DNA from: Marinibacterium profundimaris
Lineage (GTDB): Bacteria > Pseudomonadota > Alphaproteobacteria > Rhodobacterales > Rhodobacteraceae
Length of the DNA: 49,886 nucleotides
Direction of reading: 5' to 3'
Assembly (NCBI RefSeq): GCF_002210095.1
Contig: NZ_AQQR01000027.1
Coordinates: forward strand, 1-49,886
In this document: positions 3,358 through 28,709 of the stretch, piece after piece
Numbering within the stretch: position 1 is the first letter of the stretch
Layout: each line of letters opens with the position of its first letter
Program-made: the position numbers and the translations under genes
Notes under the pieces: generated by a model
What the model was told of the DNA's origin: nothing
Seen by the model: only the letters and a program-made list of their open reading frames with translations
Database searches by the model: none

Positions 3358-3497
3358 GCGCCTCCTAGCCGCCGCTGGAAACGCCACAGGCCATCTTACC
3401 CACACGCCGTAACCCTTGTGGAAAAAAATTACATAAACTTCACTATCGGATATTGAATCGCGCCGTGTTTCTCGGCTCCAAAGCTTGGCAAGCGAAC

Positions 3498-4340
3498 CTA
3501 CCTGGAAATTTCCCCTGCTAACACCGCTCGTCCGTGCACCGCCAAGGTTGCTGAAAACCTCTGGCACCCAAACTTGCGGATTACATCCAGTACGCGCGCT
3601 TCGTAGGCAGCGTGACCGATCAAACGACACAGGTCGGACGCGTGGAACTGGCGGTTCGCAGTCGGGGCGGCTTGCATCTGTCTCAGCAATTCGCGCTCTT
3701 TGGGGTCTGCTACCCGCTTCTGCGATGGTTTCACCTCGGGACGAGGCCGAGTCCCCGACGAATTCCGCCATCGGCGCATGAAGCCAAGCAGGAAGCCGGC
3801 CGGCACCCTGCCGTTGCCTCGGGACCGATTGAAGGCGAGGAAGCGGTCCCAAATGACCTGGGTGTCGACGTTCCAGCAGGGCAACGTGGCCTTCGCTGCT
3901 TTGATGAGCTCTGCCCAACTGGTCTGAAAAACATTCGAACTCGCTGTGATGTCGATCAGTCCTGCGAAGATAGTTTTGTTATTATTATCTCTAGATAGTG
4001 ATGTGTCACCTTCACCTGACACGAGATCATGGGTTTCACTCTCCTCGTCGAAGGCGGAAAACCGAAAGATCCAGGGCGCGAACTTGCCATTCGGCTTCGC
4101 CCGCTCGAGCTGCAACTCCGACGTCTCAAGTTCGCTCAAAAGAACCGAAAGATATTGTCGTGAGACACCCATCCTCTCTGCCAGGGCAGAGAGGGTGAAG
4201 GCTGCCGTTCCGCGCGACAAACCGTTGTAGCCATCCTTCCAGGCGATGGCATCGAGGATGAGGGTGGCAAGCTTGTGCGCTGCAACAGAGAGATTTGTCT
4301 GCGTGATCCGTCGCAGGATCAGGCCGGTCGTAGGTTCCAT
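3498..4340 (-). CDS. Winged-helix DNA-binding protein of the conjugation region
   Basis: A 280-residue protein. The start at 4340 is set by AAGGAGA 10 bases upstream; an upstream ATG at 4406 would add a Cys-rich tail and lacks a site. The N-terminal third contains a clear helix-turn-helix (about residues 48-72, LSALAERMGVSRQYLSVLL) followed by a wing-like strand (GKFAPWIFRFSAF). The middle is polar and the C-terminal part basic (residues 180-280). Two roles fit: a plasmid replication-initiator-like protein, or a transcriptional regulator of transfer like the rhizobial RctA class. Its promoter carries the motif shared with the virB operon, which favours a regulator. Palindromes upstream (4395-4415, 4438-4468) suggest autoregulation. 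Confidence 0.6.
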   Translation of the reverse strand: MEPTTGLILRRITQTNLSVAAHKLATLILDAIAWKDGYNGLSRGTAAFTLSALAERMGVSRQYLSVLLSELETSELQLERAKPNGKFAPWIFRFSAFDEESETHDLVSGEGDTSLSRDNNNKTIFAGLIDITASSNVFQTSWAELIKAAKATLPCWNVDTQVIWDRFLAFNRSRGNGRVPAGFLLGFMRRWRNSSGTRPRPEVKPSQKRVADPKERELLRQMQAAPTANRQFHASDLCRLIGHAAYEARVLDVIRKFGCQRFSATLAVHGRAVLAGEISR

Positions 4341-4381
4341 GGTCGAGGTCTCCTTGGAGATCCGACGCCATGTCGTGAGAC

Positions 4382-4415
4382 AACAACATTCTTGCCAGCA
4401 AAACAACTTTGCTGG
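4382..4415 (-). promoter_or_regulatory. Shared conjugation promoter motif plus palindrome, upstream of the winged-helix gene
   Basis: On the minus strand, bases 4401 to 4382 read TTGCTGGCAAGAATGTTGTT. This matches the corresponding part of the virB promoter motif at 6665-6684 in 16 of 20 positions, including TTGCT and AATGTTGTT. It overlaps the perfect palindrome CCAGCAAA-5-TTTGCTGG at 4395-4415. It lies 42 bases before the start codon, which suits a promoter with an operator. Confidence 0.5.
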
Positions 4416-4437
4416 TTGCAGGTGTTTTGGCGGTGCG

Positions 4438-4468
4438 CTAGGAAACTCTTGTTCACGGAGTTTTCTAG
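4438..4468. repeat. Imperfect inverted repeat upstream of the winged-helix gene
   Basis: CTAGGAAACTC and GAGTTTTCTAG, 11-bp arms with one mismatch, separated by 9 bases. It lies about 100 bases upstream of the winged-helix gene and is a candidate second operator. No gene covers the surrounding 4416-4576. Confidence 0.4.
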
Positions 4469-4576
4469 CACGGCGTCAGGCTTCACGGTCTGGCGTCGTC
4501 TCCTTTTTGGGGGCTTTGCACAGCCTTTCGTGCGGGGTTGTGATGACGCGCGCGGCAAGACCGCGTGCAGATTTTG

Positions 4577-5230
4577 TCAGTAGCGAACTTCTTCAGAACC
4601 ATAGTTCCCGGCGTGATCACGCCAGTCGACGAAGACGGAGCGGTAGAAGTAGCTGCCGCATCCATTCGGGATGCTCAGGCCAGATGCAGCCGGCACTTGG
4701 CCCACGTTGGATCTTGTCCATCGGTAGTCGCCCTGCACTCCGTAGGACCCCAATCGCGTGGAATCGGTGCGATTGCAGTCGCCATCTCGGTTTTCATGCT
4801 GGCGGCACTGAATGTGATAGACGCGAATGCTGCGCACGAAATCAAAGGCGTCGCCTGAGATGTCGATGTCGGCTTGTTCATCCGCCTGGACGCGAACAAG
4901 GGGTATCGGAGTCGATACCTGCGGTTCGGGCGGATCGCGAAACGTGATGTCATAAAGGCGTTCCATAGGCGACAACGGACTTGGTTCGTTGAACGACACA
5001 CCCATCGGACACCGCCAGATTTGTAGGGGCGGCTCGATCGGCCATGGCGTGATCCGCCGAATAAAGACCGCTCTGGCATGGGCGCAGGGCGCGGAGGCAG
5101 GCCAGCCGCCCGCAAGGCACAGGAGGATCGCACAGTCCACTTGATAGGCCTGAGCCGGACCTGACGAGGCCATTAGTCCGGATATGCTTATTGCCGTGGC
5201 TGTTGCCACGCCGTGGATCACGTGCTTCAT
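4577..5230 (-). CDS. Exported accessory protein of the conjugation module
   Basis: A 217-residue protein with a signal peptide (MKHVIHGVATATAISISGLM, cleavage after about GPAQA). The mature start is a Cys-rich stretch, YQVDCAILLCLAGGWP, followed by RITPWPIEPPLQIWRCP, and more Cys residues (CRQHENRDGDC) occur later, suggesting disulphides in the periplasm. I recall similar proteins as hypothetical genes beside virB-type clusters in this group, but no function is known to me. The start at 5230 fits the signal peptide; upstream in-frame codons do not. Its promoter region carries a 31-base element 28/31 identical to that of the virB operon, so co-expression with the transfer apparatus is likely. 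Confidence 0.7.
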   Translation of the reverse strand: MKHVIHGVATATAISISGLMASSGPAQAYQVDCAILLCLAGGWPASAPCAHARAVFIRRITPWPIEPPLQIWRCPMGVSFNEPSPLSPMERLYDITFRDPPEPQVSTPIPLVRVQADEQADIDISGDAFDFVRSIRVYHIQCRQHENRDGDCNRTDSTRLGSYGVQGDYRWTRSNVGQVPAASGLSIPNGCGSYFYRSVFVDWRDHAGNYGSEEVRY

Positions 5231-5256
5231 GATGCCGACTCCATCTATAATGGTGC

Positions 5257-5287
5257 AGCGATACGAAACAACATTACCGATAGCAAG
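5257..5287 (-). promoter_or_regulatory. Shared conjugation promoter motif (copy 2)
   Basis: Reading the minus strand from 5287, the element starts CTTGCTATCGGTAATGTTGT and ends TTCGTATCGCT. It is identical to the plus-strand element at 6664-6694 in 28 of 31 positions. It lies 26 bases before the ATG at 5230. A TATAGA at 5249-5244 could serve as a -10 box with TTGTTT (5271-5266) as -35, 16 bases apart. Confidence 0.65.
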
Positions 5288-5667
5288 GCGATTTGATTGA
5301 TGGCGACTTGCGATTGTTCGCTTGTGTCGCGTGACGGCTTCCAAGATCTGATGACGGTTTGAGCTCTTGAGGCGTCCTGGAAGCGGCCAAAATTGCGGCC
5401 TCCTTTCACGTCCATTGCCAAACAAACAACTGTTACAAAAAGAAAATATGGCGTTCCAATACGGCCACGAAACCGGTCACGGAAGAACAGACCGCATGAG
5501 CCCGTCAAACGGCGTGTCGCAGCGCCCATGGTCCCGGGAAGGGCAGTGTCGGAAAACTGTCGAGCCCGGTTCTCCGGCTGGAATCCGGGAACGGAAGGGC
5601 GGGTGGAGCAACGATCCTGTGTTGTGGCCTATGTTGGGATCGAACATGCGCTTGAAGACTTATGGCA
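5288..5667. other. Intergenic stretch before parDE with no convincing gene
   Basis: This stretch lies between divergent genes. A plus-strand frame runs from about 5393 to 5704 (product ending LEDLWQYLIRLSMDRRV), but it has no ribosome binding site, a basic low-complexity composition and no recognised relatives. Nothing else stands out. Confidence 0.4.
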
Positions 5668-5678
5668 GTATCTGATAC
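5668..5678. promoter_or_regulatory. Candidate ParD operator
   Basis: The short palindrome GTATC-T-GATAC lies 25 bases before the parD start, downstream of a TTGAAG that could be a -35 box (5652-5657). ParD antitoxins usually repress their own promoter by binding such repeats. Confidence 0.4.
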
Positions 5679-5703
5679 GATTGAGCATGGATAGGAGAGT
5701 CTG

Positions 5704-5946
5704 ATGCCAAACGTCCACCTGACCGAACCGATGCAGAAATATGTGCAGGCGCAGATCGAGTCCGGCGCCTACGCCAATCTGAGCGAAGTCGTGCGCGCCG
5801 GCGTAAGGATGCTGATGGAGAAGGATGGCGCGCGGCAGTTCTATGCCCTCAAGGCCGATCTCGAGATGGCAGCCACCCTGGCCGAGAATGGGGATTTCGC
5901 CGAGTTCGATGCCCAAGCCTTCGAACCGGATGCGTTTGATCGCTGA
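5704..5946 (+). CDS. parD: ParD-family antitoxin
   Basis: An 80-residue antitoxin with an N-terminal ribbon-helix-helix domain (VHLTEPMQKYVQAQIESGAY, then ANLSEVVRAGVRMLME, residues 3-40) and an acidic C-terminal tail (FAEFDAQAFEPDAFD) that would wrap the toxin. This is the normal ParD/CC2985-type length. The ribosome binding site is ATAGGAGAG. It is separated from the toxin gene by only 5 bases. The pair would stabilise the element by killing or arresting cells that lose it, and ParD should also repress the operon. Confidence 0.92.
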   Translation: MPNVHLTEPMQKYVQAQIESGAYANLSEVVRAGVRMLMEKDGARQFYALKADLEMAATLAENGDFAEFDAQAFEPDAFDR

Positions 5947-5951
5947 CCCGA

Positions 5952-6272
5952 ATGACGATTCGGCTTTCCGGACAGGCCAAGTCCGACCTTGAAGAGATAC
6001 GCACCTACACCGTCGAAACATGGGGCAGGGACCAATGGCTCGTCTATTACCGCCAGTTGGTCACCGCCTTCGAGCGGATCACTGGGGATCCCGACGCGGG
6101 CCGGGACAGGAGTCTCTTTGTCCCGGGGATGCGGTCCGTCAATTGCCAGCGACACGTGATCTTCTACAAGCGGCTCGATGCGGCGGATGGCGCGGCAGTC
6201 ATCCTGCGCATCGTGCATCAGCGCCGCAACATGCCCGCACTCGTCTACTACGAGGATCTCGACGGCGGTTAA
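5952..6272 (+). CDS. parE: ParE-family toxin
   Basis: A 106-residue RelE/ParE-superfamily toxin. Typical features are SGQAKSDLEEIRTYTVETWG near the N-terminus, an RSLFVPGMRSVNCQRHVIFYK strand region around residues 54-75, and VILRIVHQRRNM near the C-terminus. ParE members target DNA gyrase; the RelE branch cleaves mRNA at the ribosome. The sequence favours ParE, but the target is inferred from the family. It lies directly behind its antitoxin. Confidence 0.92.
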   Translation: MTIRLSGQAKSDLEEIRTYTVETWGRDQWLVYYRQLVTAFERITGDPDAGRDRSLFVPGMRSVNCQRHVIFYKRLDAADGAAVILRIVHQRRNMPALVYYEDLDGG

Positions 6273-6286
6273 GCCCATGCGGTTGC

Positions 6287-6565
6287 TCAGTCCAATAGCT
6301 CGATCAGTTTTCCATAGTCTTCACTGACCTCGCGCGCCTCCTGAAACGCCCGTTGGCGCTCGGCATCAAGACAGCGGAAGTATTCCTGAATGTCGGCAAT
6401 GTAGTCCTCGAAATCAGAACGCAGCAGATCGGCATAGGCACGAATGTCTTCTCGCGACTGAGGCAAGAACGGTCGTTCGGGAGGTACGCAATCTGCTGCC
6501 GCGGCTATCGGCATGCTTCCAAGCAGGAACGCGAACAGCAACGGTGCGTTGCGCGCAATAAACAA
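6287..6565 (-). CDS. Small exported protein of the conjugation module
   Basis: A 92-residue protein starting at a TTG codon (AAAGGAG lies about 14 bases upstream). It has a signal peptide (FIARNAPLLFAFLLGSMPIA, cleaved near AAA-ADC). The mature part has two Cys residues (CVPPERPF and EYFRCLDAER) and a helical acidic body. It converges with parE, whose stop is 15 bases away, and is divergent from the virB operon. Function is unknown; small periplasmic partners of the secretion channel are a plausible class. The TTG start is the weakest part of the call. Confidence 0.6.
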   Translation of the reverse strand: MFIARNAPLLFAFLLGSMPIAAAADCVPPERPFLPQSREDIRAYADLLRSDFEDYIADIQEYFRCLDAERQRAFQEAREVSEDYGKLIELLD

Positions 6566-6663
6566 CCGCAGGGCAAAACTCCTTTGCCGCCTTTAAGATT
6601 ATCATTCTGTCGGCTATCACCGTTATCGGAGCAAGGCGAACTTCGTCAACACGTTATTATTGT

Positions 6664-6694
6664 CTTGCTATCATTAATGTTGTTTTGTATCGCT
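6664..6694 (+). promoter_or_regulatory. Shared conjugation promoter motif (copy 1), virB operon
   Basis: The element starts CTTGCTATCATTAATGTTGT and ends TTTGTATCGCT. It is 28/31 identical to the copy at 5257-5287 and similar to the one at 4382-4401. If TTGCTA is the -35 box, the -10 would be TATCGC after 17 bases. It stands 65 bases before the first gene of the virB operon, within an AT-rich stretch (6600-6700). Confidence 0.65.
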
Positions 6695-6759
6695 CACGGT
6701 GTTGCGACCCCGTGGGCCTGATACTGCACCCAGGCAGAACAAGGACCCAAGGGAAGGCC

Positions 6760-7086
6760 ATGATAGAAGAAGCCCCGAATGTGGTTACAGAAGACGGACT
6801 GCGCGGCTTGCTCGCCGAGGGCTACCTCATTGAGGTGGTCTGCAAGGAGAGAGCAGAGAAGCGCCATAACAGCTGGTACGGCTCGTGGGTCATCCGCGCC
6901 GTCGCCACTGATGGGCGTGACGATAAGATGCTCGTCACCAGCCGAAGCGTCCTCAAGCTCCGCGACTTCAAAACCATCGTTGGCCTTGTCAGTTTCCTGG
7001 CCGACATGGGCTGTACGACCGCTAGCATCCCACTTGAAGAAGGTGGCCGCGAGCGCCACGCCGCGCCTCCGGTCAAAGGCAGCTGA
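6760..7086 (+). CDS. Small cytosolic protein, first gene of the virB operon
   Basis: A 108-residue protein without signal peptide or membrane segment, starting MIEEAPNVVTEDGLRGLL. The start is chosen for GGGAAGG 6 bases upstream. The middle has a beta-rich stretch (SWYGSWVIRAVA, then KMLVTSRSVLKLRDFKTIVG) followed by a helix. It overlaps the transglycosylase gene by 44 bases, which implies translational coupling. I do not recognise the family. Its place at the head of the operon, right after the shared promoter motif, suggests a regulatory or early accessory role. Confidence 0.6.
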   Translation: MIEEAPNVVTEDGLRGLLAEGYLIEVVCKERAEKRHNSWYGSWVIRAVATDGRDDKMLVTSRSVLKLRDFKTIVGLVSFLADMGCTTASIPLEEGGRERHAAPPVKGS

Positions 7087-7726
7087 CCGCGCGACTGCGC
7101 TCGTCGTTGCTTTGGGTACAGGCGTTTGTTCCGCGCCCCCGGCCCTGGCCGACGGTTTCATCTTCTCGGTTGGTCCTGACGGCCAATTGATTTCCTCTTC
7201 TCAAGAGGCAAACGGGCGCCTTTTTCTCTTCGCAGAACCTCGCGTCCCTGACGCAACGAGCGAGACAGCGATCCCGGCTCGATCTGCCGCCCGCGCCACC
7301 CCAGAAATCCTCCATGCGATCGAGACTACGGCTCTACGGTATGCCGGGCATGGTGCGCTGCGTCGCGCAGGACTTTCCGTCACTGATTGGGCGCTCCTTT
7401 ACCGGGCCAATATCGAAGTCGAGAGCGCATACAATCCCGCAGCACGTAGCCCTGTCGGGGCTATAGGCCTCGGACAGCTTATGCCGGATACCGCCCGCGA
7501 TCTCGGCGTGGACCCACATGACATTGCGCAGAACCTCGACGGATCAGCTCGCTACCTGCTGATGATGCTCGACCAGTTCGGCGAGGGCTCTCTGGCCCTT
7601 GCGGCCTACAACGCTGGTCCGGAGGCGGTCACACGCCACGGCGGCATCCCCCCATTTCGCGAAACCCAAGGGCATGTGGCCCGTGTGACCGCCGTGTTTG
7701 AGCGGCTCAGAGGAGATCTTTCATGA
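7043..7726 (+). CDS. virB1: VirB1-like lytic transglycosylase
   Basis: An SLT-family muramidase that would open the peptidoglycan for assembly of the secretion channel. The GTG start at 7043 gives a 227-residue protein with a signal peptide ending at APPALA (about residue 34). The catalytic domain covers roughly residues 105-220: catalytic Glu127 in IEVESAYNP, followed by SPVGAIGLGQLMPDTA and LALAAYNAGP, the three classic SLT motifs. It overlaps the previous gene by 44 bases and virB2 by 4 (ATGA). It is the first of two transglycosylase genes in this operon. Confidence 0.88.
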   Translation: MAASATPRLRSKAADRATALVVALGTGVCSAPPALADGFIFSVGPDGQLISSSQEANGRLFLFAEPRVPDATSETAIPARSAARATPEILHAIETTALRYAGHGALRRAGLSVTDWALLYRANIEVESAYNPAARSPVGAIGLGQLMPDTARDLGVDPHDIAQNLDGSARYLLMMLDQFGEGSLALAAYNAGPEAVTRHGGIPPFRETQGHVARVTAVFERLRGDLS

Positions 7727-8037
7727 CATCGAGGAAACGTCAAAGCGTGCTCCGCACGCGGGCGATCACCGCGTTCGGCGCGATGGCCCTTATCGTGCTG
7801 GCGGGTCCAGCGCTTGCGCAGAGCATCGACCTCTCGCCGGTGCAGACCCTGCTTCAAGGAATTGTCGATGCGATCACCGGTCCCTTGGGGATCGTGATCG
7901 GAACGCTCGCGCTGATCGGGGTGTTCCTTTCCTGGCTCTTTGGCATCCTCGACTTCCGTCAGGCCCTCTGGGTCGTGGTTGCAATCGCGGGCATCGCCGC
8001 AGCACCCACCATCGTCGCCGCCATCTGGACGACCTGA
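7723..8037 (+). CDS. virB2: VirB2/TrbC-family major pilin
   Basis: A 104-residue pilin precursor. A long leader ends GPALA-Q at about residue 32. The mature peptide has two hydrophobic helices (about 45-70, then 75-100) separated by the short polar loop GILDFRQ, the TrbC/VirB2 pattern. The protein would be processed and assembled into the conjugative pilus. It overlaps virB1 by 4 bases and precedes virB3 by 9 bases. Confidence 0.88.
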   Translation: MTSRKRQSVLRTRAITAFGAMALIVLAGPALAQSIDLSPVQTLLQGIVDAITGPLGIVIGTLALIGVFLSWLFGILDFRQALWVVVAIAGIAAAPTIVAAIWTT

Positions 8038-8046
8038 GCTCCATCC

Positions 8047-8325
8047 ATGGCTGACCAGTCCCGCGTGTTCATCGGCCTTCTCAGGCCACCCAAGCTGATG
8101 GGCTTGCCGATCATGTATGCCATGGTCTGGCTCTTCGGCTCTACTCTCCTGTTCCTCTGGGTGCAGAGCTGGGTGGTGGCCGTCTTCGCGGGGCTGGCCT
8201 GGCCGGCGCTTTGGAAAGCCGCGGACTGGGATCCGAACTTCCTCGATGTCCTGGTGATCACCTTGCAGGAAACCCCGCCCACGACGAACCGCAAGCTGCA
8301 CGGAGGCGACAGCTATGCCCCGTGA
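8047..8325 (+). CDS. virB3: VirB3-family inner-membrane protein
   Basis: A 92-residue protein with the usual VirB3 start (FIGLLRPPKLMGLPIMYAMV), one or two transmembrane segments (about residues 20-55) and a short tail. VirB3 sits in the inner membrane with VirB4 and helps pilus assembly. It overlaps virB4 by 11 bases, as commonly seen for this pair, which are fused in some systems. Confidence 0.88.
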   Translation: MADQSRVFIGLLRPPKLMGLPIMYAMVWLFGSTLLFLWVQSWVVAVFAGLAWPALWKAADWDPNFLDVLVITLQETPPTTNRKLHGGDSYAP

Positions 8326-10699
8326 TGGACTTGCCAATGACGTGGCGGAGGCGCTCGATCCGCTGACTGCGCTACCCTCATGGGTCAAGGGCGAGAAGCG
8401 GCTCTCAATGATGCTGCCTTATGTGAGCCTCGTAAACGACCGAACGATCCGGACACGCGGCAACGAGCTGATGCAGTGCATCCGCCTCGAAGGGGTGAAC
8501 AGCACCACGAGCGAGGACGGGCATCTGGACCGGATCGGGGGGTTGCTGGCTGGCATCGTGGCGCAGGTCGGGACCGAGTTCTCATTCTACCTGCACAAGG
8601 TCTCGAAAGCGGTCGATGTGACCCTGCCGCCCGTTCCGGGCGAAGGGTTTGCGGCTGCCGTCGACGAACGATGGCACGCGCATCTCGGCCGCGCGGGTTT
8701 GCGCGACAAGACGCTGACCCTGACGGTGCTGAGGCGACCTGAGACCGGCAGCCGCTTGCCGTTCGGACTTGGGGCGTCTCGCTCGCGACACGCGGCCGAC
8801 ACCACCCGCCGCTTGCGCAAGCTCGACGAGGTTGTGGGGTTTCTGCTGTCCTCCTTCGATGAGCTGAAGCCCCGCCTGCTGGCTGCAAGCACCGGAGAGC
8901 TTCTGGGCTTCCTCGGTTCACTCAACACGGGCGAGGAGCACCCGCTCTTCCCCCGGTCGCGCCACGGTGTGATCGCCGAGGACGTAGCAAATACCCGCGT
9001 CACCTTCCGCGGCACGACCATCGCACTCTCGGACGGTGCCGTCAGCGACAAGCTCGGGGCGATCTTTGCGGTGAAGAACTACCCCGCCAAGACAGATAGC
9101 CTGATGCTCGACGAGTTGAATCTGCCCGTCGACATGGTGGTCACACACTCTTTTGTGCCGATCAACGCCAACATCATGGCGGGCCGGATCAAGCGGCAGC
9201 TGCGGCTAATGCAGGCCGCCAATGACGGAGCCGTCAGTCTCGCCCAGGAACTGGAACTCGCGCAGGACGATCTGGAATCCAAACGCCTGATCTTCGGCGA
9301 GCACCACATGACCGTGGCCGTCTATGCCCGAACCCAGACGGCGCTTGACGACATCGCGGCCGAAATCCGCAACATCTCCGCCACCTCCGGCATCAACCTG
9401 ATCTCGGAGGCCTTCGGGGCGCGGGCGCATTTCATGGCGCAGCATCCCGGCAATACCGGGGCGCGAAGCCGCAAGGCAGCGATCACAAACCACAACTTCA
9501 CCGATCTCGCCGCCTTTCACCGCACCCCGCTCGGCAAGACTGGCAAGGAAGTGCCGTGGGGCGTGCCCATCACACTCTTCCCGACGCCCGAGCGCAGTGG
9601 TTTTCGCTTCAACTTCCACGAACAGGGCGCGCCGGATCGCGAGCCCACAGGTGGGCACACGCTGATCCTGGGCCGCCCCGGCTCCGGTAAATCCGTACTG
9701 GCGGCTTTCCTGATGACCATGGCACGGCGGGCAGGTGCGCGGGTCTTCGTCTTCGACTATCGCGCGGGCATGGAGATGGCCGTCCGTGCGCTCGGCGGCA
9801 GCTATTCGACGATACGTGCCGGACGGCCCACGGGCCTCAATCCGCTCCAGACCGAGATCGACATGCGGGGCCAAGCATGGCTTGCTGATTGGCTCGCGAG
9901 CCTCTTAGAGCGGCGCGATCGACCGCTAACTCCGATTCAGACCAACCGACTGCAGGAAGTCGTGCGCCAGAACGCGAGCGCAGGACATGCGGGCCTGCGA
10001 AACTGGTCGGATTTCGCCTCGCTGCTGGTCTCGACCGATGACGAGGGCGATCTCTTCGAGCGTATGCAGGAGTGGACGGCCGAGGGCCGCTATGGCTGGA
10101 TCTTCGGGGCCAATGCCGAGGACAGCTTCAGCATTGACGGCGATGTCGCAGGCTTCGATCTGACCGGCATCCTCGACTCCGAGAGCGAGCGGGAACGCAT
10201 GGCGGTCCTGTCCTATCTTTTCCGCCGGGTCGAGCGCGTGATCGAGGACCGCAAGCCCACGATCATCGTCATCGACGAGGCATGGAAGGCGCTCGACAAC
10301 GCTTATTTCGCAGAACGGCTCTCGAACTGGCTGGTGACTGCCCGCAAGCAGAACGCCGTCGTCGTCATGATGACCCAATATGCCAGTCAGCTCGAACGCA
10401 CCCGGACCGGCAAGACCATCGTCGAAGCCGTGCCGACGCAGGTGCTTTTGCCCAACATTCGCGCCTCGGCTGCAGATTACTCGATGCTCGGCCTGACCGA
10501 GAAAGAGCTCGACGTGCTTCTGGGCGTCGGCTCGGCCTCGCGGCTCGCACTTGTACGCGACGACCGTGGTTCCGTCGTGATCGATGCCGATCTCAGCGCG
10601 CTCGGCCCGCTCGTGACCATCCTTGGCGGAATGGAGAAGGGCGAAGCGCTTGCCGGCGCCGATTATCGCGAACGTCCTGATTTCTGGAGAGTGACATGA
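8315..10699 (+). CDS. virB4: VirB4 ATPase of the type IV secretion system
   Basis: A 794-residue ATPase of normal VirB4 length. The N-terminal CagE/TrbE/VirB domain covers about residues 180-390. The C-terminal RecA-like domain holds Walker A GRPGSGKS (about 452-459) and Walker B TIIVIDEAW (about 647-655), followed by the motif VVVMMTQYASQLE. VirB4 powers pilus biogenesis and substrate transfer at the inner membrane. The start has CGGAGG 7 bases upstream. It ends with an ATGA overlap onto the VirB7-like gene. Confidence 0.95.
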   Translation: MPRDGLANDVAEALDPLTALPSWVKGEKRLSMMLPYVSLVNDRTIRTRGNELMQCIRLEGVNSTTSEDGHLDRIGGLLAGIVAQVGTEFSFYLHKVSKAVDVTLPPVPGEGFAAAVDERWHAHLGRAGLRDKTLTLTVLRRPETGSRLPFGLGASRSRHAADTTRRLRKLDEVVGFLLSSFDELKPRLLAASTGELLGFLGSLNTGEEHPLFPRSRHGVIAEDVANTRVTFRGTTIALSDGAVSDKLGAIFAVKNYPAKTDSLMLDELNLPVDMVVTHSFVPINANIMAGRIKRQLRLMQAANDGAVSLAQELELAQDDLESKRLIFGEHHMTVAVYARTQTALDDIAAEIRNISATSGINLISEAFGARAHFMAQHPGNTGARSRKAAITNHNFTDLAAFHRTPLGKTGKEVPWGVPITLFPTPERSGFRFNFHEQGAPDREPTGGHTLILGRPGSGKSVLAAFLMTMARRAGARVFVFDYRAGMEMAVRALGGSYSTIRAGRPTGLNPLQTEIDMRGQAWLADWLASLLERRDRPLTPIQTNRLQEVVRQNASAGHAGLRNWSDFASLLVSTDDEGDLFERMQEWTAEGRYGWIFGANAEDSFSIDGDVAGFDLTGILDSESERERMAVLSYLFRRVERVIEDRKPTIIVIDEAWKALDNAYFAERLSNWLVTARKQNAVVVMMTQYASQLERTRTGKTIVEAVPTQVLLPNIRASAADYSMLGLTEKELDVLLGVGSASRLALVRDDRGSVVIDADLSALGPLVTILGGMEKGEALAGADYRERPDFWRVT

Positions 10700-10911
10700 C
10701 CAGTACCATCATTCGCAGCGTCGTGCTGCTAGGGCTCGGCCTGACCCTGACAGCCTGTGCACAGCATAACCCCCCGCAAGCCAACTGCTTTAATTTTCGC
10801 GAGGCTCCTGCGCAGGCAAGAACCGCCACCGCCACGATCTCGACCATGGGGGCGGAAGTCACGCGCCGCGACACGGCCTGCGATTTCGTCCTCTTGGGTG
10901 CGGGCAGTTGA
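10696..10911 (+). CDS. virB7: VirB7-like small lipoprotein
   Basis: A 71-residue protein with a lipoprotein signal peptide and lipobox LTAC (Cys21). After the lipidated Cys there are two more Cys residues (QANCFNF and DTACDF) that could form disulphides. VirB7 is the outer-membrane lipoprotein that stabilises VirB9 in the core complex; its sequence is poorly conserved, so the call rests on size, lipobox and place in the operon. It overlaps virB4 by 4 bases. Confidence 0.7.
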   Translation: MTSTIIRSVVLLGLGLTLTACAQHNPPQANCFNFREAPAQARTATATISTMGAEVTRRDTACDFVLLGAGS

Positions 10912-10915
10912 GCCA

Positions 10916-12082
10916 ATGCGGACCTGGCTTCCTCTCTCGATGATCGGCTTTGCACTGGCAGTTCCCGCGGCGGGGCCGGCGGTCGCCCAGGGCGTGCCAA
11001 CCTTCGATCTGCGCCTGTTCGCAGAGCGGCAGGCGATCCTCGAGCAGACCGATCGGGACCTGACACTGCAGCAGGACCGGCTAAGCCGCGAGGAGGAACT
11101 GGCCGAGATCGAGCGTCAGCAACTCGCCTCCCTCGAAGGGCTGATGGATGCCATGTCGCTTGGCGCTGGAGATGTGGCCGGCACCGTGGCCGGGCTCGAG
11201 GCGGGGCAGGGGGCGGTTGACGACGTCGAAAGCGCGGCCGCCAGTCTTTATGCACCCGAGGACACCAATCCAGCGGCGGCGCGGATGTTCGGCGATGCCC
11301 GGGAGGGGATCGAGGAGCTGATCATCCGCGCAGCACGCGACACCCATAGTCTGTCCGGGGTCGGCCGTGCGGGCCTTTCGCTCGTGCAATGGCGCTGCCT
11401 TTTGCAGGCGCTGATCTGGCAGGAAAGTCGTTTCCAGATTGGGGCACGCTCACCCGTGGGGGCCTTCGGACTTACCCAGATCATGCCCGGTACCGCGGGC
11501 GATCTCGGGATCTACCCGGCCTATTACGACGATCCCTATCTGCAGGTCACCGGCGGTGCGCGATACCTCGCACAAATGCTGAACATGTTCGACGGCAACA
11601 TCATCCATGCGCTCGCCGCCTATAACGCCGGTCCGGGCAATGTGCAGGATTATGGCGGTGTGCCGCCCTTCGCGGAAACCCAGCACTATGTCGTGGTGAT
11701 CCCGCAGCAGTACAACAGCTACCTCGCGGCCGTAGGCGGCATCGATGCGCTCGGCACCATCGACCCTGTGCTCCTCGCCAACGCGAGTTTCAGCCTCTCG
11801 GCCCACGGCGCAGGGGTCTATGGCGACTATTCGCTGGTCTCGGTCCGTGCCGCCGCCCTGCGGGTGCAGGACATCATCACCCGCATTGGTGAGACCGAGG
11901 ATCTCCACGAGGCCATCGCTCTCAACACCTATGCCCGGGCCGAACTGGCCCGGCTGGTTGCAATCCGGACCCGGATTAAGGCCGCCCGAACCGAGCCACT
12001 CAGCGCCGAGCAGATCGCCTTGGCGGCAGCGCAAGCTGCCGAGCGGCAATACATGGATTTTAGTCAGGAGGATTTGCGTTGA
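10916..12082 (+). CDS. VirB5-like protein with an inserted lytic transglycosylase domain
   Basis: A 388-residue exported protein with a signal peptide (cleaved near AVAQ). The mature N-terminus, QGVPTFD followed by a coiled coil of about 50 residues (LEQTDRDLTLQQDRLSREEE), and the C-terminus, ERQYMDFSQEDL, match the ends of the next gene's VirB5 product (QGVPTVD and ERRYMDFTLPDL). Between them lies an SLT domain (about residues 145-275) with catalytic Glu170 in WQESRFQ, SPVGAFGLTQIMPGTA and ALAAYNAGP. It therefore looks like a VirB5 paralogue that gained a muramidase domain. It would bring peptidoglycan cutting to the pilus tip or channel, which is inference. An upstream ATG at 10757 overlaps the lipoprotein gene and is not preferred. 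Confidence 0.75.
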   Translation: MRTWLPLSMIGFALAVPAAGPAVAQGVPTFDLRLFAERQAILEQTDRDLTLQQDRLSREEELAEIERQQLASLEGLMDAMSLGAGDVAGTVAGLEAGQGAVDDVESAAASLYAPEDTNPAAARMFGDAREGIEELIIRAARDTHSLSGVGRAGLSLVQWRCLLQALIWQESRFQIGARSPVGAFGLTQIMPGTAGDLGIYPAYYDDPYLQVTGGARYLAQMLNMFDGNIIHALAAYNAGPGNVQDYGGVPPFAETQHYVVVIPQQYNSYLAAVGGIDALGTIDPVLLANASFSLSAHGAGVYGDYSLVSVRAAALRVQDIITRIGETEDLHEAIALNTYARAELARLVAIRTRIKAARTEPLSAEQIALAAAQAAERQYMDFSQEDLR

Positions 12083-12876
12083 ACCTGCGCCTGCCCCGTT
12101 CCCTTTTCGCCGGTAGCATCGCTCTCGCACTTGCCCTCAATGTCACCGGACCTGCCGGGGCACAGGGTGTGCCCACGGTGGACACCCAAAACATTGCCCA
12201 GGAAATCCGCCAGCTTCAGCAGATGCTGCAGGATTTCGGGATCCAGACCGATCTTCTGGACAATGCGTTGGAGCAACTGAACATGCTGCAAAGCCAGCTC
12301 GATCAGCTGAACGAGATGTATGCCTCGCTCACCGGGCCGCGCAGCATCCTCGGGCTTGCCATGGGCGGGGACCTCGACACCTTGCTTCAGGCCAACTTCG
12401 AAGACATCCCCGGCCTGATCCGAGGCATCCAGGCGGGCGATTGGAGCGCGCTCATCGGGCCCAATGCCGGGCCCATGCGCACGCAGATTGAACAGGCGCT
12501 GGCAAGTGCAGGGTTCGACGAAGATTCTCTCCGCGAAATCGCCACCAGCGGCAATCCGGGAGCTGAAGGCGTGGCCACCCGGGCAACCACAGGTGCTGTG
12601 ATGTCGGCGGCGGCGCAGAACAGCCACGCAGAGGCGGAACAGTCTCTCGAACGAGTGGAACGTCTGGTCGAGATGATCCCGGACATGGAGGATCTCAAAG
12701 CCTCGATGGATCATAACACGCGCGTCACGGCGGAACTCGCCATCGCCATGACCCGGATGTGGGAGTTGGAAGCGATCCAAACCCTCGGCGCAGGCAATGC
12801 AGGCGTGGTTGATGCCGCCACCCTTGCCGAAGAACGCCGCTACATGGACTTCACCTTGCCGGATCTTGAGCCATGA
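12079..12876 (+). CDS. virB5: VirB5-family minor pilin / pilus-tip protein
   Basis: A 265-residue exported protein with a signal peptide ending GPAGAQ and a mature start GVPTVDTQNIAQEIRQLQQM, followed by long alpha-helical coiled-coil stretches and a central loop, as in VirB5/TrbJ-like proteins. It starts with TTG inside TTGA, overlapping the stop of the hybrid gene, with CAGGAGG 8 bases upstream. VirB5 caps the T-pilus and mediates contact with recipients. It overlaps virB8 by ATGA. Confidence 0.85.
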   Translation: MNLRLPRSLFAGSIALALALNVTGPAGAQGVPTVDTQNIAQEIRQLQQMLQDFGIQTDLLDNALEQLNMLQSQLDQLNEMYASLTGPRSILGLAMGGDLDTLLQANFEDIPGLIRGIQAGDWSALIGPNAGPMRTQIEQALASAGFDEDSLREIATSGNPGAEGVATRATTGAVMSAAAQNSHAEAEQSLERVERLVEMIPDMEDLKASMDHNTRVTAELAIAMTRMWELEAIQTLGAGNAGVVDAATLAEERRYMDFTLPDLEP

Positions 12877-13538
12877 GTGGGGCAGGGGTGATGACTGCGC
12901 GCGAACTCGTGGAAGAGGAACTTGTCTACGGTGCCCTGCGCCGGGAACAGCTTTGGCGGATGATCGGCCTTTCCGGGGCAGGCTTCGGCGTATTTGGTTG
13001 TTTGACGGCTGCGGCTGTCGCGCTGATGGTCGAGACGCCGCCTCCCGTGGTTGTCCCCTACGATCCCGCGACCGGGGTGGCGCTCCCCAATGCCACGGTT
13101 GAAACCGTGTCCCTTGCCGAACGGCCAGCCGTGATCGAAGCACAAATCTACCGCTACCTTCTCGACCGCGAGACTTACAACCAGCTCGACAATGATCTTC
13201 GTGTCCGCCGCGTCCTGGCACAGTCTTCCGGGTCGGCCGAGGCCAGCATGCGCGCGATGTGGACATCGGGGCAGGAGAGCTATCCGCCGACGCGTTACGG
13301 GGCTGCGGCCGAGATGGCCGTTGAGATCGCATCGATCACCCTTATTGGCGAAAACCGCGCCCAGGTGCGGCTCAGAAAGCGCCTGACAAGCCCGCAGGGG
13401 GTACAGGATGGATCGTTCACTGCCACATTGATGTTTGAATTTCAGCCGGAACGGACCCGCTCCCTCGACGATGTCTGGCAAAACCCTTTCGGTTTCACCG
13501 TCACTCAATATGCCATCCGATCGGACCGTTCTGAATGA
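12873..13538 (+). CDS. virB8: VirB8-family inner-membrane scaffold protein
   Basis: A 221-residue bitopic protein: a cytosolic N-terminus, one transmembrane helix (about residues 31-53) and a periplasmic NTF2-like domain (about 70-221) with the typical YDRETYNQLDNDLRVRRVLA-like region and a C-terminal strand ending NPFGFTVTQYAI. VirB8 nucleates the secretion complex. It overlaps both neighbours by ATGA, and an internal ATG six codons downstream is an alternative start. Confidence 0.92.
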   Translation: MSGAGVMTARELVEEELVYGALRREQLWRMIGLSGAGFGVFGCLTAAAVALMVETPPPVVVPYDPATGVALPNATVETVSLAERPAVIEAQIYRYLLDRETYNQLDNDLRVRRVLAQSSGSAEASMRAMWTSGQESYPPTRYGAAAEMAVEIASITLIGENRAQVRLRKRLTSPQGVQDGSFTATLMFEFQPERTRSLDDVWQNPFGFTVTQYAIRSDRSE

Positions 13539-14236
13539 CTCGCACTGCAATCTCTACGCTGTTGGCCGCCAGCATTCTCGCGCTCGCGGGAACGACCGCC
13601 ATGGCCGAAACCACGCCCCGTCCACGCTCTCACGATAATCGCGTGCGCGTGGCGACCTGGACCGAAGGCCAGGTTTACCGGGTCGTCACGACACTGACCC
13701 GTGTCACCACAGTCGAATTCGGTGAGGGTGAAACCATCCGCTCGATCATCGCCGGCGATACGGTCGGTTTTCAATTCGACGATGTCCCGGGTGGCCGTGC
13801 CTTCGCCATCAAGCCAACAGCATCTGGCGTTGCCACCAACATCACCGTCTACACCAACCGCCGCTCCTACTACTTCCATGTCGTCGAAGCCCGGGAGACG
13901 CCGCATTATGTCGTGCAGTTCCGCTATCCTGAAAACCGCGTGCAACCCACCAGGGCGGTTGCGGCCGATGCGCCGAACGCGAACTATGCGGTCAGTGCCC
14001 GAGAAGAGTTCACGCCGACGGCCATCTGGGATGATGGTACCTTCACGTATTTCCGGTTTGCACGGAACGCGCCGGTGCCCGCCATCTTCCGATATTCGAA
14101 CGGAAGGGAACGCGCGGTGAACAGCCACACCTCAAGTGACGGCGTTATCCGCGTATCTGGCGTCAACCGACAATGGGTCCTTCGCCTTGGCGAAGATGTG
14201 GTTTGCGTCCAGGACGCAGGGCAGGCCACATCATGA
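13535..14236 (+). CDS. virB9: VirB9-family outer-membrane complex protein
   Basis: A 233-residue exported protein with a signal peptide ending TTAMA. It has an N-terminal VirB9/CagX domain (about 35-130, with the VEFGEGETIRSIIAGD motif) and a C-terminal domain (about 150-233) with PTAIWDDGTFTYFRF, which pairs with VirB7 and VirB10 in the core complex. Length is slightly short for the family but complete. It overlaps virB8 and virB10 by ATGA. Confidence 0.93.
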   Translation: MTRTAISTLLAASILALAGTTAMAETTPRPRSHDNRVRVATWTEGQVYRVVTTLTRVTTVEFGEGETIRSIIAGDTVGFQFDDVPGGRAFAIKPTASGVATNITVYTNRRSYYFHVVEARETPHYVVQFRYPENRVQPTRAVAADAPNANYAVSAREEFTPTAIWDDGTFTYFRFARNAPVPAIFRYSNGRERAVNSHTSSDGVIRVSGVNRQWVLRLGEDVVCVQDAGQATS

Positions 14237-15558
14237 CCGAAGGTACGGAAGACCTCGCCGCGCGCCTCGCGGCTCTCGAAGGTTCGACAGGCAAAGCGAA
14301 GGCAAACAAGCGGCCTGCGCCGCTTGCGGCGATCCTTGGAGTCGTCGGCATCGCGGCAGCAGGTGGTCTGGCGTGGGCTGCCCTACAGCCGTCGGCAGAA
14401 GCACCAATGGCGACCGCCGCGCCGGAAGAGTTCCAGAGCACCGGCCCCGGATTCGGAGATCTGGCGCCGATTTCTGCCCCGGAGCCCAGCCAAGCCCCGC
14501 CTGCGGACACAGGTCCGAGCGAGTCAGAACTAGCGCTGATAGAAAGTCTTGCGACATTGAGAGCGGAACTCGAGGAACTGCGCGCAAGACCGGCCGAGGC
14601 CGCGGATAGCGGGGCGGAGCAGGCTATTGCGGACCTGACGGCGCAAATTGCCACCTTACAGGAAGCATCCGCCGAGGCTCAGCGGGCCCTCGAGCGGCAA
14701 CTGACCGAGCGGGATCGCGAATTGGATCAGCTCCGCATGGACTTGGAACTTGCACGGCTTGCACCACCAGAGCCGACCTCATTGGGACCAAGTGAAGAAG
14801 AATTGCGGTTGGCCGAACTAGAAAGGCGGCGCGCAGCCGAAGCCGAGGCCCGCGCAGAGCGTATCGCGTCTCCTATGATCGCCTTCTCCGGGATGGGCGC
14901 GGGTGCGGATAGGGAGAATACGCTGGAAGCCGCGCGACTGAATGCAGATGAAGCCTTTGTTCGTTCGGGCGCGCAACCTGCACAGGTGACACGTGCCGAA
15001 GTGATCGCGAACCCATCGAACACGGTTGTTCAGGGCACCATGATTCAGGCTGTGACAGAGACGGCCCTCGACAGCACACTGCCCGGCGCGATCCGCGCCA
15101 TCGTCTCGGAAGACGTCCATTCTTTCGATGGAACGCGTATCCTGATCCCGCGCGGCGCGCGGCTGATCGGGCGCTACCGCTCCGATGTCGCACTCGCCCA
15201 ATCGCGCGTCATGGTGGCATGGGACCGGATCATCCTGCCCGATAATCAGACCGTGCAGATCAGCGCCTTCGGTGGAGACGAACTCGGCCGTACTGGCACC
15301 ACCGGGTTTGTCGACACCCGTTTCGCGCAACGCTTCGGTTCCGCCGCGCTGATCTCCTTGATCGGCGCCCTGCCTGCGGCTGCAGCGGGTCAAATCGACA
15401 GCGAGGCGGCGGCCGATGTTGCGAGTGATGTCGGCACCGACCTGCGCGATAGTACGCAAAGCGTGATGCAGGACTATCTGGCGATCCGGCCAGTGATACA
15501 TGTCGATCAGGGTACACGGATCACGGTCATGGTTGATCGTGACCTCGAGATTTTCTGA
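14233..15558 (+). CDS. virB10: VirB10-family core-complex protein
   Basis: A 441-residue protein with a cytosolic N-terminus, one transmembrane segment (about residues 31-51), a long Pro/Ala/Glu-rich linker with a coiled coil (about 85-215), and the C-terminal TrbI/VirB10 domain (about 240-441). The domain has the expected stretches VVQGTMIQAVTETALDS, GTRILIPRGARLIGRY and MVAWDRIILPDNQ. VirB10 spans inner and outer membranes and senses ATP use by the ATPases. The start at 14233 is preferred over 14173 because it gives the usual ATGA overlap. Confidence 0.94.
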   Translation: MTEGTEDLAARLAALEGSTGKAKANKRPAPLAAILGVVGIAAAGGLAWAALQPSAEAPMATAAPEEFQSTGPGFGDLAPISAPEPSQAPPADTGPSESELALIESLATLRAELEELRARPAEAADSGAEQAIADLTAQIATLQEASAEAQRALERQLTERDRELDQLRMDLELARLAPPEPTSLGPSEEELRLAELERRRAAEAEARAERIASPMIAFSGMGAGADRENTLEAARLNADEAFVRSGAQPAQVTRAEVIANPSNTVVQGTMIQAVTETALDSTLPGAIRAIVSEDVHSFDGTRILIPRGARLIGRYRSDVALAQSRVMVAWDRIILPDNQTVQISAFGGDELGRTGTTGFVDTRFAQRFGSAALISLIGALPAAAAGQIDSEAAADVASDVGTDLRDSTQSVMQDYLAIRPVIHVDQGTRITVMVDRDLEIF

Positions 15559-15559
15559 C

Positions 15560-16594
15560 ATGGCTGCAAGTTATCTGGAAGCGTCGCTCGACCGTTTCGG
15601 CCCCGAGGTCCTGCGCGACGACACGATCGAAATCTGCATCAATCCTGACGGACAAGTCTGGGGAGAGTTTCAGGGCGATCACTTCATGCGTGCACTGGGC
15701 AGCCCGCTGACCCAGACCGAGATCAAGGACCTCGGCAATCAAATCGCCTCCGCCGCCTCGACCACACTCAGCACCAAGAAGCCCATCGTCTCGGTCTCGA
15801 TCCTCTATCGCGACCGGCCAATCCGCGCGCAGGTGATCCAGCCGCCGGCAGTAGAAGGCGGGTTCTCCATATCGCTGCGATTCTTCTCCTCCCTGCCGCT
15901 CGAGGCGATCAAGCTCGGGTTTCTCTATGGCAAGGAGCGCAGCCTCGAAGGCCTGCGCCGCGAACGTAACGCCGCGCTGCGCGATGTGGTGACATCCGGC
16001 GACATCAACGCCGCCCTGCACTTCTGCGTCGAGAACAAGCTCAACATGATCGTCTCGGGCGGCACATCGACCGGCAAGACGGTCGCGGCGCGCAAGATCC
16101 TTTCGCTGATCCCGCCCGAAGAGCGGATCATCACCATCGAGGAGGCGGCCGAGCTGCGCCCCGAGCAGCCCAATGTCGTGACGTTGATCGCTGACCGGGA
16201 CACGGATGCCCGCAGTGCCGATGTGCTCTTGGCCTCAACGCTTCGCATGCGACCCGACCGGATCGTCCTAGGCGAAGTCCGCGGGCGCGAAGCGATGACG
16301 TTTCTCGAGGCAATCAACACCGGCCACGGTGGATCGCTGACCACACTGCATGCCGAGACCCCACAACTTGCTGTTCGCCGCCTCGCCATCGCCGCCCTGA
16401 AAACCGATGTGCCGATGACCTATGCCGACATGATCGATTATATTGAGGGCTCGATCGACGTGATCATTCAGGCAGGCCGCCATGAAGGCGCGCGCGGAAT
16501 CACCGAGTTCTTCCTGCCGGGTCATACCACAGATTTGAACCTCGACACGGTCGACGGCAGAGGCAACAAGAGCCCCTCCGTTGCCGCTGAGTAA
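15560..16594 (+). CDS. virB11: VirB11 secretion ATPase
   Basis: A 344-residue hexameric traffic ATPase. Walker A is GGTSTGKT (about residues 167-174), the Asp box IITIEEAAEL follows near 193, Walker B-like LRMRPDRIVLGEVRG is near 230, and the His box TGHGGSLTTLHAETP near 255. It drives switching between pilus assembly and DNA transfer at the cytosolic face. The start at 15560 lies one base after the virB10 stop; a longer frame from 15500 overlaps virB10 and is rejected. Confidence 0.95.
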   Translation: MAASYLEASLDRFGPEVLRDDTIEICINPDGQVWGEFQGDHFMRALGSPLTQTEIKDLGNQIASAASTTLSTKKPIVSVSILYRDRPIRAQVIQPPAVEGGFSISLRFFSSLPLEAIKLGFLYGKERSLEGLRRERNAALRDVVTSGDINAALHFCVENKLNMIVSGGTSTGKTVAARKILSLIPPEERIITIEEAAELRPEQPNVVTLIADRDTDARSADVLLASTLRMRPDRIVLGEVRGREAMTFLEAINTGHGGSLTTLHAETPQLAVRRLAIAALKTDVPMTYADMIDYIEGSIDVIIQAGRHEGARGITEFFLPGHTTDLNLDTVDGRGNKSPSVAAE

Positions 16595-16610
16595 AAAAGG
16601 ACCTCCCCAG

Positions 16611-17030
16611 ATGCGAAAACCAATCCTCGCAGTCACGCTTGCCGCCCTTGCGGGCCCACTTGTGGCGCAGACTTCGCCTCAGGTTTCAAACGATCTCACA
16701 GTCGATATGTCGCCTCAACAATACCGGATCTGCAACGATCGTCCGGCGCGACCGACTTGGATGGACGAAATCAATCCGCGTGAAGCTTACAAGGCAGCAG
16801 CTTTGATGGAGTTGTACGAAATTCGGGCCTGGGAGGAGATCGCTGAATCTGGCGACTGCAGCTGTGAAACCCGCTTTCCCGCTTGGGATAGCTCCGATGG
16901 CGAATATCATGAAAGGTATGCAGGCCTTAGCCAAGCCGAGCATTCAGCGTTTCGCCGCGACTGGATTGAAGTAAGGAAGCAACTCGAGCCGAGCGTGCGT
17001 ACAATCTGCGAAGCTCAAGGCAACTGGTAA
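16611..17030 (+). CDS. Exported protein between virB11 and virB6
   Basis: A 139-residue protein with a signal peptide (MRKPILAVTLAALAGPLVAQ). The mature part has Cys residues at RICND, SGDCSCETRFP and RTICEAQG, so disulphides are likely, and contains many Trp and Glu. The site occupied suggests an EexN- or VirB7-type accessory, but no lipobox is present and no family was recognised. It starts after AAAAAAGGA and ends with TAATG, sharing a base with virB6. Confidence 0.65.
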   Translation: MRKPILAVTLAALAGPLVAQTSPQVSNDLTVDMSPQQYRICNDRPARPTWMDEINPREAYKAAALMELYEIRAWEEIAESGDCSCETRFPAWDSSDGEYHERYAGLSQAEHSAFRRDWIEVRKQLEPSVRTICEAQGNW

Positions 17031-18055
17031 TGGGCGTCGTCAGCTGGATGGTCGGAACGGCAGACGCGTTCCTTGTCGATGCGGCTGAGTCCCAGTTCGG
17101 GGCCGTGGCAAGCAATACCGGCACGATCGTCCTGCTGATGGTCACGCTTTCGCTAATCGGCGTCTGCATCAACATGGCATTCCAGTTCCGCAGCATGGAT
17201 GGGGCCAGCTTCTTCTGGTACCTGATCAAGCTGACCCTTATCGGTCTATTCGCCTTCAATTGGGCAAACTTCAATGCAGTAGCAAACGCAGTCATTGGAG
17301 GCTTGGACTACGTCGCTGGCGCACTGGTGTCTTCGGTTGGCGGCGGAGGAGCCGGAGCCACACACTTTGCTGGCGAATTCGACATCCTGATCGAAAAATT
17401 CAGCCAGTACCTGAATGCTATCGGCAGCAACCTGAACTGGATGACGGGCGCGATCCTAGGCGGCATCGGGCTTATTCTTTTGAGCCTCCTTGGCTTCATG
17501 ACCGGCATCGTCCTCATATTCGCCAAGATGATGCTGACCCTCATGCTCGGCCTTGCTCCGATCATGATTGCATTGTCGCTCTTCGACGCGACCAAAGATT
17601 TCTTCCACAGATGGGTCTCGACGACAGTCAGCTATGCCTTCTACCCCATCGTAATCGCAGCAATGTTCTCTACCGTCGTCGGCATGGCGAATTCGCTGCT
17701 AGCCCAGCTCGGTGATCCGAACTCGGCAACCAACATCGGATCGCTGGTGCCGTTCTTCGTCATGGTGTTCCTGGCCAAGGGATTTGTGGCAGCAACACCC
17801 CTGATCGTGCGAGGGATATCGGGGAACCTGATGGTGGCGGCGACGCCTGCTGTTGCCGCTGGATCGATCGGGATCATGCGAGGGATCTTCAATACCGACG
17901 GCGTAAAGGGCAGGACGCGGATCGGGGCGCTCCCGACAGGCGAAGCGATCGGGCGGGGTGCGGTGCAGGCACCTGCAGTCGTACGGACCGCTACAGTGAC
18001 CGCCAGCGCGCAGCTAGTCAGGATGGCGGAACGGGCAAAACGGCTGAGAGGATAG
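17030..18055 (+). CDS. virB6: VirB6/TrbL-family polytopic channel protein
   Basis: A 341-residue inner-membrane protein with at least six hydrophobic segments (about residues 25-50, 58-80, 135-160, 165-185, 205-230, 240-260) and the family region GLAPIMIALSLFDATKDFFHRW around residues 177-198. VirB6 forms part of the translocation pore. Its place at the operon end, after virB11, differs from the Ti-plasmid order. The C-terminal 80 residues are low-complexity and basic. Confidence 0.9.
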   Translation: MGVVSWMVGTADAFLVDAAESQFGAVASNTGTIVLLMVTLSLIGVCINMAFQFRSMDGASFFWYLIKLTLIGLFAFNWANFNAVANAVIGGLDYVAGALVSSVGGGGAGATHFAGEFDILIEKFSQYLNAIGSNLNWMTGAILGGIGLILLSLLGFMTGIVLIFAKMMLTLMLGLAPIMIALSLFDATKDFFHRWVSTTVSYAFYPIVIAAMFSTVVGMANSLLAQLGDPNSATNIGSLVPFFVMVFLAKGFVAATPLIVRGISGNLMVAATPAVAAGSIGIMRGIFNTDGVKGRTRIGALPTGEAIGRGAVQAPAVVRTATVTASAQLVRMAERAKRLRG

Positions 18056-28690: not shown

Positions 28691-28709
28691 TTTGAAGTTA
28701 ACGTTCCTA

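Follow-up and report, generated by a model that had tools for sequence, protein, structure and literature searches.

A promoter element shared by the virB operon and an exported-protein gene in a conjugation module of Marinibacterium profundimaris, and its candidate winged-helix regulator

The 49,886-nucleotide stretch of DNA from Marinibacterium profundimaris analyzed here (contig NZ_AQQR01000027.1 of assembly GCF_002210095.1; referred to as the window) carries a conjugation module in which two promoter-like elements, one preceding the virB operon (element A) and one preceding a gene for an exported accessory protein (EXP; element B), are nearly identical. Co-control of virB and EXP is strongly supported by the position of these elements in relatives, by their co-variation with clean flanks, and by the fact that the motif is almost confined to these two places. 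A putative winged-helix protein (WH), whose gene is preceded by a partial copy of the element (element C), is the best candidate for the regulator of A and B. The original prediction, which was made from the letters of the window, had proposed that WH controls its own gene, virB, and the accessory gene; its regulon is thus retained as co-control of virB and EXP, with WH in the role of a candidate. Among conjugative plasmids of Rhodobacterales, marine and other, the element appears to travel mostly with the WH gene.

Elements A and B are identical in 28 of 31 bases and C matches A in 16 of 20 bases, both as predicted, and C matches B in 15 of 20 bases (Table 1). The description of three promoters sharing one motif is exact for A and B, whereas C has diverged, lacks the -10 part, and departs from the other two past position 20. 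The proposed common core had to be trimmed in a similar manner: TTGCT, the C at position 8, and AATGTTGTT are common to all three copies, but the following adenine is found only in A and C and is replaced by G in B. The window has four copies of AATGTTGTT compared with 0.17 expected, and 0 of 100 shuffles reached this number; the fourth copy (29942-29950, minus strand) lies within a VirC1-like open reading frame and is absent from the hits of a scoring matrix for the element. This matrix was built from 47 distinct A and B sites of the relatives and of the window itself, which makes the scores circular for A (55.8) and B (48.7; 30 bases, best random score 10.9 in 30 simulated windows) but not for C. 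With a score of 21.8 for its first 20 bases, C ranks third after A and B, above the best random score of 14.7 in 30 simulated windows and the next real 20-base match of 15.5 at position 33520. C by itself is just moderately above chance in one window, and its support comes from conservation in relatives. No further site in front of the relaxase or VirC genes was detected in the matrix scan of the window.

A and B have a sigma-70-type layout with TTG.. at -35, a spacer of 17 bases, and TA.... at -10, and variation in the matrix is lowest in the initial TTG, in TGTTGT at the core of the spacer, and in the TATC close to the end. Both can accordingly be read as promoters, the spacer being the special part. 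A promoter of the same kind in front of the gene for a small exported protein (SEXP), which is divergent from virB, was considered because of a resemblance spotted by eye at 6600-6640 and was rejected after it failed in relatives; the region upstream of SEXP is without the element, with 14/30 matching bases in the window and at most 18/30 in relatives.

For the comparison with relatives, loci were collected by VirB4 (the best 80 of 442 candidates) and supplemented with three plasmid regions. The elements co-occur with virB in relatives. A matches in at least 22 of 30 bases in 66 of 75 loci with ORF1, the first gene downstream of A (window included), and in 19-20 bases in five; the weakest scores are 18 for L084 and 17 for L062-L064. 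The distance between A and ORF1 stays within the range given in Table 1 in all 75 loci. Among 48 loci with EXP, B matches in at least 22 of 30 bases in 34 and in at least 20 in 46, and it is missing from L055 and L084. In a control with 2000 random stretches of 200 bases, 12 scored at least 24, none scored 20-23, and all others scored 19 or less; these stretches came from loci whose real sites had been left unmasked, and the 12 high-scoring ones are taken to be real sites. The exact pattern of C is present in 30 of 42 loci with WH, and eight of the other 12 are of a Paracoccus type with an altered element, in which GGTG or AGTG replaces GTTG in both A and B. Within this Paracoccus-type branch, 18-base palindromes overlapping the -35 region were seen by eye in A and B of L062 and L063/L064, in contrast to the asymmetric element of the main clade. 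The palindrome in A of L062 is ATCATTGCAAGCAATGAT, and its counterpart in B has one mismatch.

The agreement between A and B inside a plasmid amounts to 24.51/30 bases compared with 22.54 in shuffled pairings (37 representatives, 0/20000), and to 23.42 compared with 21.81 with 12 representatives (P 0.002). L055 and L084 had been removed before this test, and 46 plasmids remained. Columns 6, 9, 10, and 16 of the element (numbered from 1) are among those behind the co-variation, and controls with 30 bases of upstream and 24 bases of downstream flank gave no co-variation (P 0.10-0.89). A and B thus change in parallel within a plasmid, which is not seen for their flanks, and one factor probably reads both. 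C co-varies with B as well, with an agreement of 14.29 compared with 13.72 over 20 columns (P 0.0001), P 0.017 for columns 4-26, and P 0.0006 for columns 13-20; these values refer to 38 pairs with no clade correction and without L101, L105, and L115, which have no B. The likeness of A and B could also stem from a recent duplication or from chance resemblance of two ordinary promoters with no regulator involved, and promoters that lie 1.4 kb apart could indeed be copied one from the other. This is very improbable, as the likeness ends at the borders of the element, is present in relatives in which EXP is only 66-77% identical, and has its most constant columns in the spacer, which is normally free to vary.

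Across 394 genomes of the family, a strict form of the motif was found at 57 sites in 26 genomes and its reversed pattern at none. Judged against the 29 best locations of ORF1 and 25 locations of WH, 28 sites are located 86-98 bases in front of ORF1, 24 are located 945-957 bases in front of WH, which corresponds to the region in front of EXP, and five are unclassified; 52 of the 57 sites thus fall at a virB or EXP promoter. WH is present in 24 of the 26 genomes with the motif compared with 14 of the 368 without it. When the 86 genomes with ORF1 are considered, the motif is found in 22 of 31 with WH and in 2 of 55 without WH (Fisher P 2e-11, ancestry ignored). In 31 genomes that have no WH in the fetched virB stretch, chosen from 33 such loci by leaving out L083 and L084, a genome-wide search found WH elsewhere in 28 (23 full length, 5 partial) and EXP also in 28. 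Of the 21 plasmid records in which an A-like promoter was found, 18 contain WH in whole or in part, two of these being clearly partial. In 28 of 46 plasmid records with WH, no A was found in a search with 66 bases.

WH falls into no Pfam family above the cut-off, lacks NCBIfam matches at 0.01, and has an E value of 0.044 for its best PHROGs match. A structural model based on 26 sequences (mean predicted local distance difference test score, pLDDT, 76; predicted template modeling score 0.38) shows what looks like a winged helix at residues 19-94, made up of helices and two strands and followed by a helical C-terminal part. Among solved structures, the best matches are winged helices, with CodY at E 0.022, and no match had an E value of 0.001 or less. 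The prediction that C overlaps a perfect palindrome in front of this putative DNA-binding gene is borne out (Table 1). In relatives, the arms of the palindrome are mostly kept or compensated, with GTTGT, GTATT, or GTGTT in the center. L101 has CCGGCAAA-TGCC-TTTGCCGG and L069 has ACCGACAA/TTGTCGGC with 7/8 matches; the palindromes of the Paracoccus type are weaker (6-7/8), and that of L105 is lost. A tandem GTTGTT repeat as the conserved feature of the WH promoter was rejected, because the palindrome and not the repeat is kept as the center varies. Copies of WH with about 76% identity are also located among transposition genes in L115 (14683-15525) and L117 (6001-6843), with an IS5-type transposase gene in the place of EXP. 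These transposon-borne copies retain the palindrome and C without an adjoining EXP, which favors autoregulation of WH; they could also act in trans on other plasmids.

Instead of WH, a different factor such as the ORF1 product or the MobC-like protein might read A and B, with WH being merely a linked member of the regulon. ORF1 homologues are indeed wider spread than WH (86 compared with 38 of the 394 genomes), the MobC-like protein has a helix-turn-helix match, and A persists in some genomes without WH. However, 53 of the 86 ORF1 genomes have neither WH nor the motif, so that the specificity of ORF1 would need to change lineage by lineage, EXP and SEXP look exported, and the WH promoter keeps C and the palindrome even where a transposase gene replaces EXP. 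A non-WH factor is therefore regarded as unlikely.

On balance, the comparisons of sequence favor a transfer regulon in which A and B would be regulated promoters under an autoregulated WH, which is probably a repressor. WH would bind to the spacer element of A and B and switch the virB operon and EXP together, most likely by blocking RNA polymerase. By binding to C and the palindrome upstream of its gene, WH would also limit its own level. The transfer machine would thus be held low until WH is removed or inactivated, for example upon entry of the plasmid into a cell without WH. Repression is somewhat preferred over activation, as the core lies between -35 and -10 and as RctA represses virB in a similar setting (see below); the weak -10 would fit an activator too.

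Several observations weigh against WH as the regulator. Many winged-helix operators are palindromic, but no palindrome is seen by eye in the element of the main clade, and in L057 and L077 column 16 is altered in B and C but unaltered in A. The motif is present in two genomes in which no WH was found (G068 and G115), and the exact motif is lacking in 14 genomes with WH. A is kept in the genomes of L049, L058, and, weakly, L055, in which WH was not found, and only a partial WH was found in five further genomes. Furthermore, the A-bearing plasmids NZ_CP010872, NZ_CP004396, and NZ_CP035507 are without WH. Finally, the co-occurrence of WH and the motif is confounded by linkage and ancestry, and WH is not separable from other lineage-linked genes. 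In NZ_CP035507, an IS5 transposase gene occupies the slot of WH. In Celeribacter indicus, A is located on NZ_CP004396 while EXP with B and WH are located on NZ_CP004395, an apparent division of the regulon between two plasmids. Some of the cases of A without WH may be explained by the draft state of genomes, by WH on a sister plasmid as with NZ_CP004395, or by IS5 in the WH slot.

Eight plasmids outside the 46 WH records (L084 and L106-L112) were examined for the element. It was not found on either strand of the whole fetched stretch in any of them (best matches 17-19/30), and the same scan gave 30/30 for L113 and 22/30 for L116, which are plasmids with WH. L084, L109, and L110 have a gene for a small helix-turn-helix regulator near SEXP, and L112 has genes for an acyl-homoserine-lactone (AHL) synthase and an autoinducer-binding protein. 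In L106, L107, L108, and L111, a RepC gene is located behind EXP in the slot that is held by WH in the window; no repA or repB is annotated in the visible stretch of these four plasmids. From this arrangement, it could be argued that WH is a replication or copy-number protein, that the palindrome and C are replication sites, and that their likeness to A and B is incidental. This is a highly improbable explanation. WH as a RepC relative was rejected, as it has no match to PF03428 or PF11800 while the RepC proteins of L106 and L107 match these profiles, and the alignment of WH with RepC by hhalign has a probability of 6%. In addition, two WH plasmids that were inspected carry other partition or replication genes, and C co-varies with B.

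Alternatively, the host may read the element, either as a promoter or as the target of a sigma factor or chromosomal regulator such as one from the quorum-sensing cascade of Dinoroseobacter shibae. This would agree with the -35/-10 layout with its 17-base spacing and with the published AHL control of the type IV secretion system (T4SS) in D. shibae, in which T4SS genes of the 191- and 126-kb plasmids are reported to be strongly activated by AHL quorum sensing (PMC4886583). A host factor would, however, hardly cause A and B to co-vary by plasmid lineage or confine the motif nearly to genomes with WH, and the element is absent from the eight other plasmids, most of which are from the same order, hosts and plasmid lineages being partly confounded in this comparison. 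Control by a host factor is thus considered quite unlikely.

In L084 and L110, another element, CGATAGTATATTATC, is common to EXP and to the interval between SEXP and virB, with 15 and 15 and with 14 and 15 of 15 matching bases, respectively, in opposite orientations. L109 has this element only at the virB side (14/15), and it was not found at 13/15 or more in the other five plasmids without WH or in L113. Its presence at both EXP and virB of L084 and L110 suggests that virB and EXP are co-controlled in another way in at least one other lineage. In the remaining lineages without WH, no element shared by EXP and virB was found at 17/20 or more, the virB side of L107 and L108 being probably uncovered. 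A further-reaching and rather doubtful possibility is that WH founds a new family of autoregulated transfer regulators in Rhodobacterales with a spacer operator. On this view, virB and EXP would stay a fixed pair of targets, operator and regulator would be exchanged jointly from one plasmid lineage to another (as a WH set, an XRE-type set, or others), and the transposon-borne WH copies would inhibit the transfer of other plasmids in trans. Its odds are slightly lowered by the finding that the second shared element is present in two relatives and not in three.

Plasmid-encoded control of transfer genes is already known. According to the reports consulted, RctA is a winged-helix protein encoded beside virB; it represses transfer genes and binds to the region of the virB promoter (PMC13055273, PMC13274422). 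The RctA/RctB systems of Sinorhizobium meliloti pSymA and the symbiotic plasmid of Rhizobium etli CFN42 resemble the present case by a regulator encoded near virB and, by analogy, by the binding and repression suggested for WH. In 33 kb of pSymA around virB4, no match to WH was found. A divergent helix-turn-helix protein adjoining virB of pSymA, presumably RctA to judge by its position only, aligns with WH with a probability of 0.5%, and WH as an RctA homologue was rejected for lack of sequence support. WH has 280 amino acids compared with about 122 in RctA, and its gene starts 2.3 kb from A with EXP, parDE, and SEXP in between, whereas the RctA gene is divergent from and adjoins virB. A further difference from the RctA system is that the exported gene EXP has the element of virB in the window. 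As neither sequence nor gene position agrees, WH is classed as an RctA analogue and not as a member of its family.

The T4SS plasmids of D. shibae are likewise from Rhodobacterales with a controlled virB operon, the published control being quorum sensing (PMC4886583). Other virB promoters of Roseobacter plasmids, from Phaeobacter inhibens P72 and D. shibae, have been assayed with green fluorescent protein reporters, and the main text of this report does not contain the words regulator, motif, or repress (PMC11481893). Searches of open-access literature listed no paper on the element, on WH, or on the target set.

Table 1. Features of the conjugation module in the window; positions are counted from the first base of the window.
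Feature	Position	Strand	Remarks
WH, candidate regulator	3498..4340	-	putative winged-helix protein, 280 amino acids
Element C	4382..4401	-	before WH gene; only first 20 bases of element
Palindrome CCAGCAAA-ACAAC-TTTGCTGG	4395..4415	.	perfect; overlaps C
EXP	4577..5230	-	exported accessory protein, 217 amino acids; N-terminal signal-like stretch by eye
Element B	5257..5287	-	before EXP gene; architecture as in A; -50 to -62 of gene start in 46/48 loci
ParD/ParE	5704..6272	+	toxin-antitoxin pair between B and A
SEXP	6287..6565	-	small exported protein, divergent from virB; signal by eye
Element A	6664..6694	+	before virB operon; -86 to -98 of ORF1 in relatives
-35-like TTGCTA of A	6665-6670	+	followed by 17-base spacer
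Core ATGTTGT of A	6677-6683	+	conserved, in spacer
-10-like TATCGC of A	6688-6693	+	
Inverted repeat GCTCACGG-10-CCGTGGGC	6692..6717	+	directly 3' of A -10
ORF1	6760..7086	+	108 amino acids; first gene downstream of A
virB cluster	7094..18055 (start approximate)	+	transglycosylase, VirB2, B3, B4, second transglycosylase, B5, B8, B9, B10, B11, VirB6/TrbL
MobC-like protein	28103-28765		helix-turn-helix match

The module is of the VirB type (MPF_T), as VirB2-B6, VirB8-B11, a coupling protein, and a VirD2/MobA-like relaxase are encoded in the window together with the MobC-like helix-turn-helix protein and VirC1. An extra lytic transglycosylase gene is located within the virB cluster (10757-12082), besides the copy 3' of ORF1. 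Parts of a 2.5-kb region of the window are matched by 236 plasmid records, with Phaeobacter (63), Pseudosulfitobacter (53), and Sulfitobacter (19) as the most frequent genera, and at least 80% of this region is covered in 15 records. No Rfam match was found within 3400-8400 of the window. Directly behind A, the inverted repeat is conserved as a stem of 7-8 pairs with varying register in 35 of 35 distinct leaders of relatives (L084 not being part of this set), with a mean score of 7.43 compared with 4.10 for base-shuffled leaders. This repeat may form a leader hairpin or serve as a second operator where transcription starts.

ParD/ParE are without annotation in the compact relative L116, suggesting that this pair is outside the core module; EXP and SEXP are also present in L116. 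EXP is highly conserved with invariant cysteines, no protein family was found for it, and its structural model is too poor for use (mean pLDDT 47.7). The tie between EXP and virB suggests that EXP belongs to the transfer process.

The published control of plasmid transfer that was met with in Rhodobacterales is the quorum sensing of D. shibae (PMC4886583). The module analyzed here adds a concrete putative operator, a candidate regulator, and EXP as a co-controlled exported gene, and it supplies a natural set of lineages between which the operator, and possibly the regulator, has changed.

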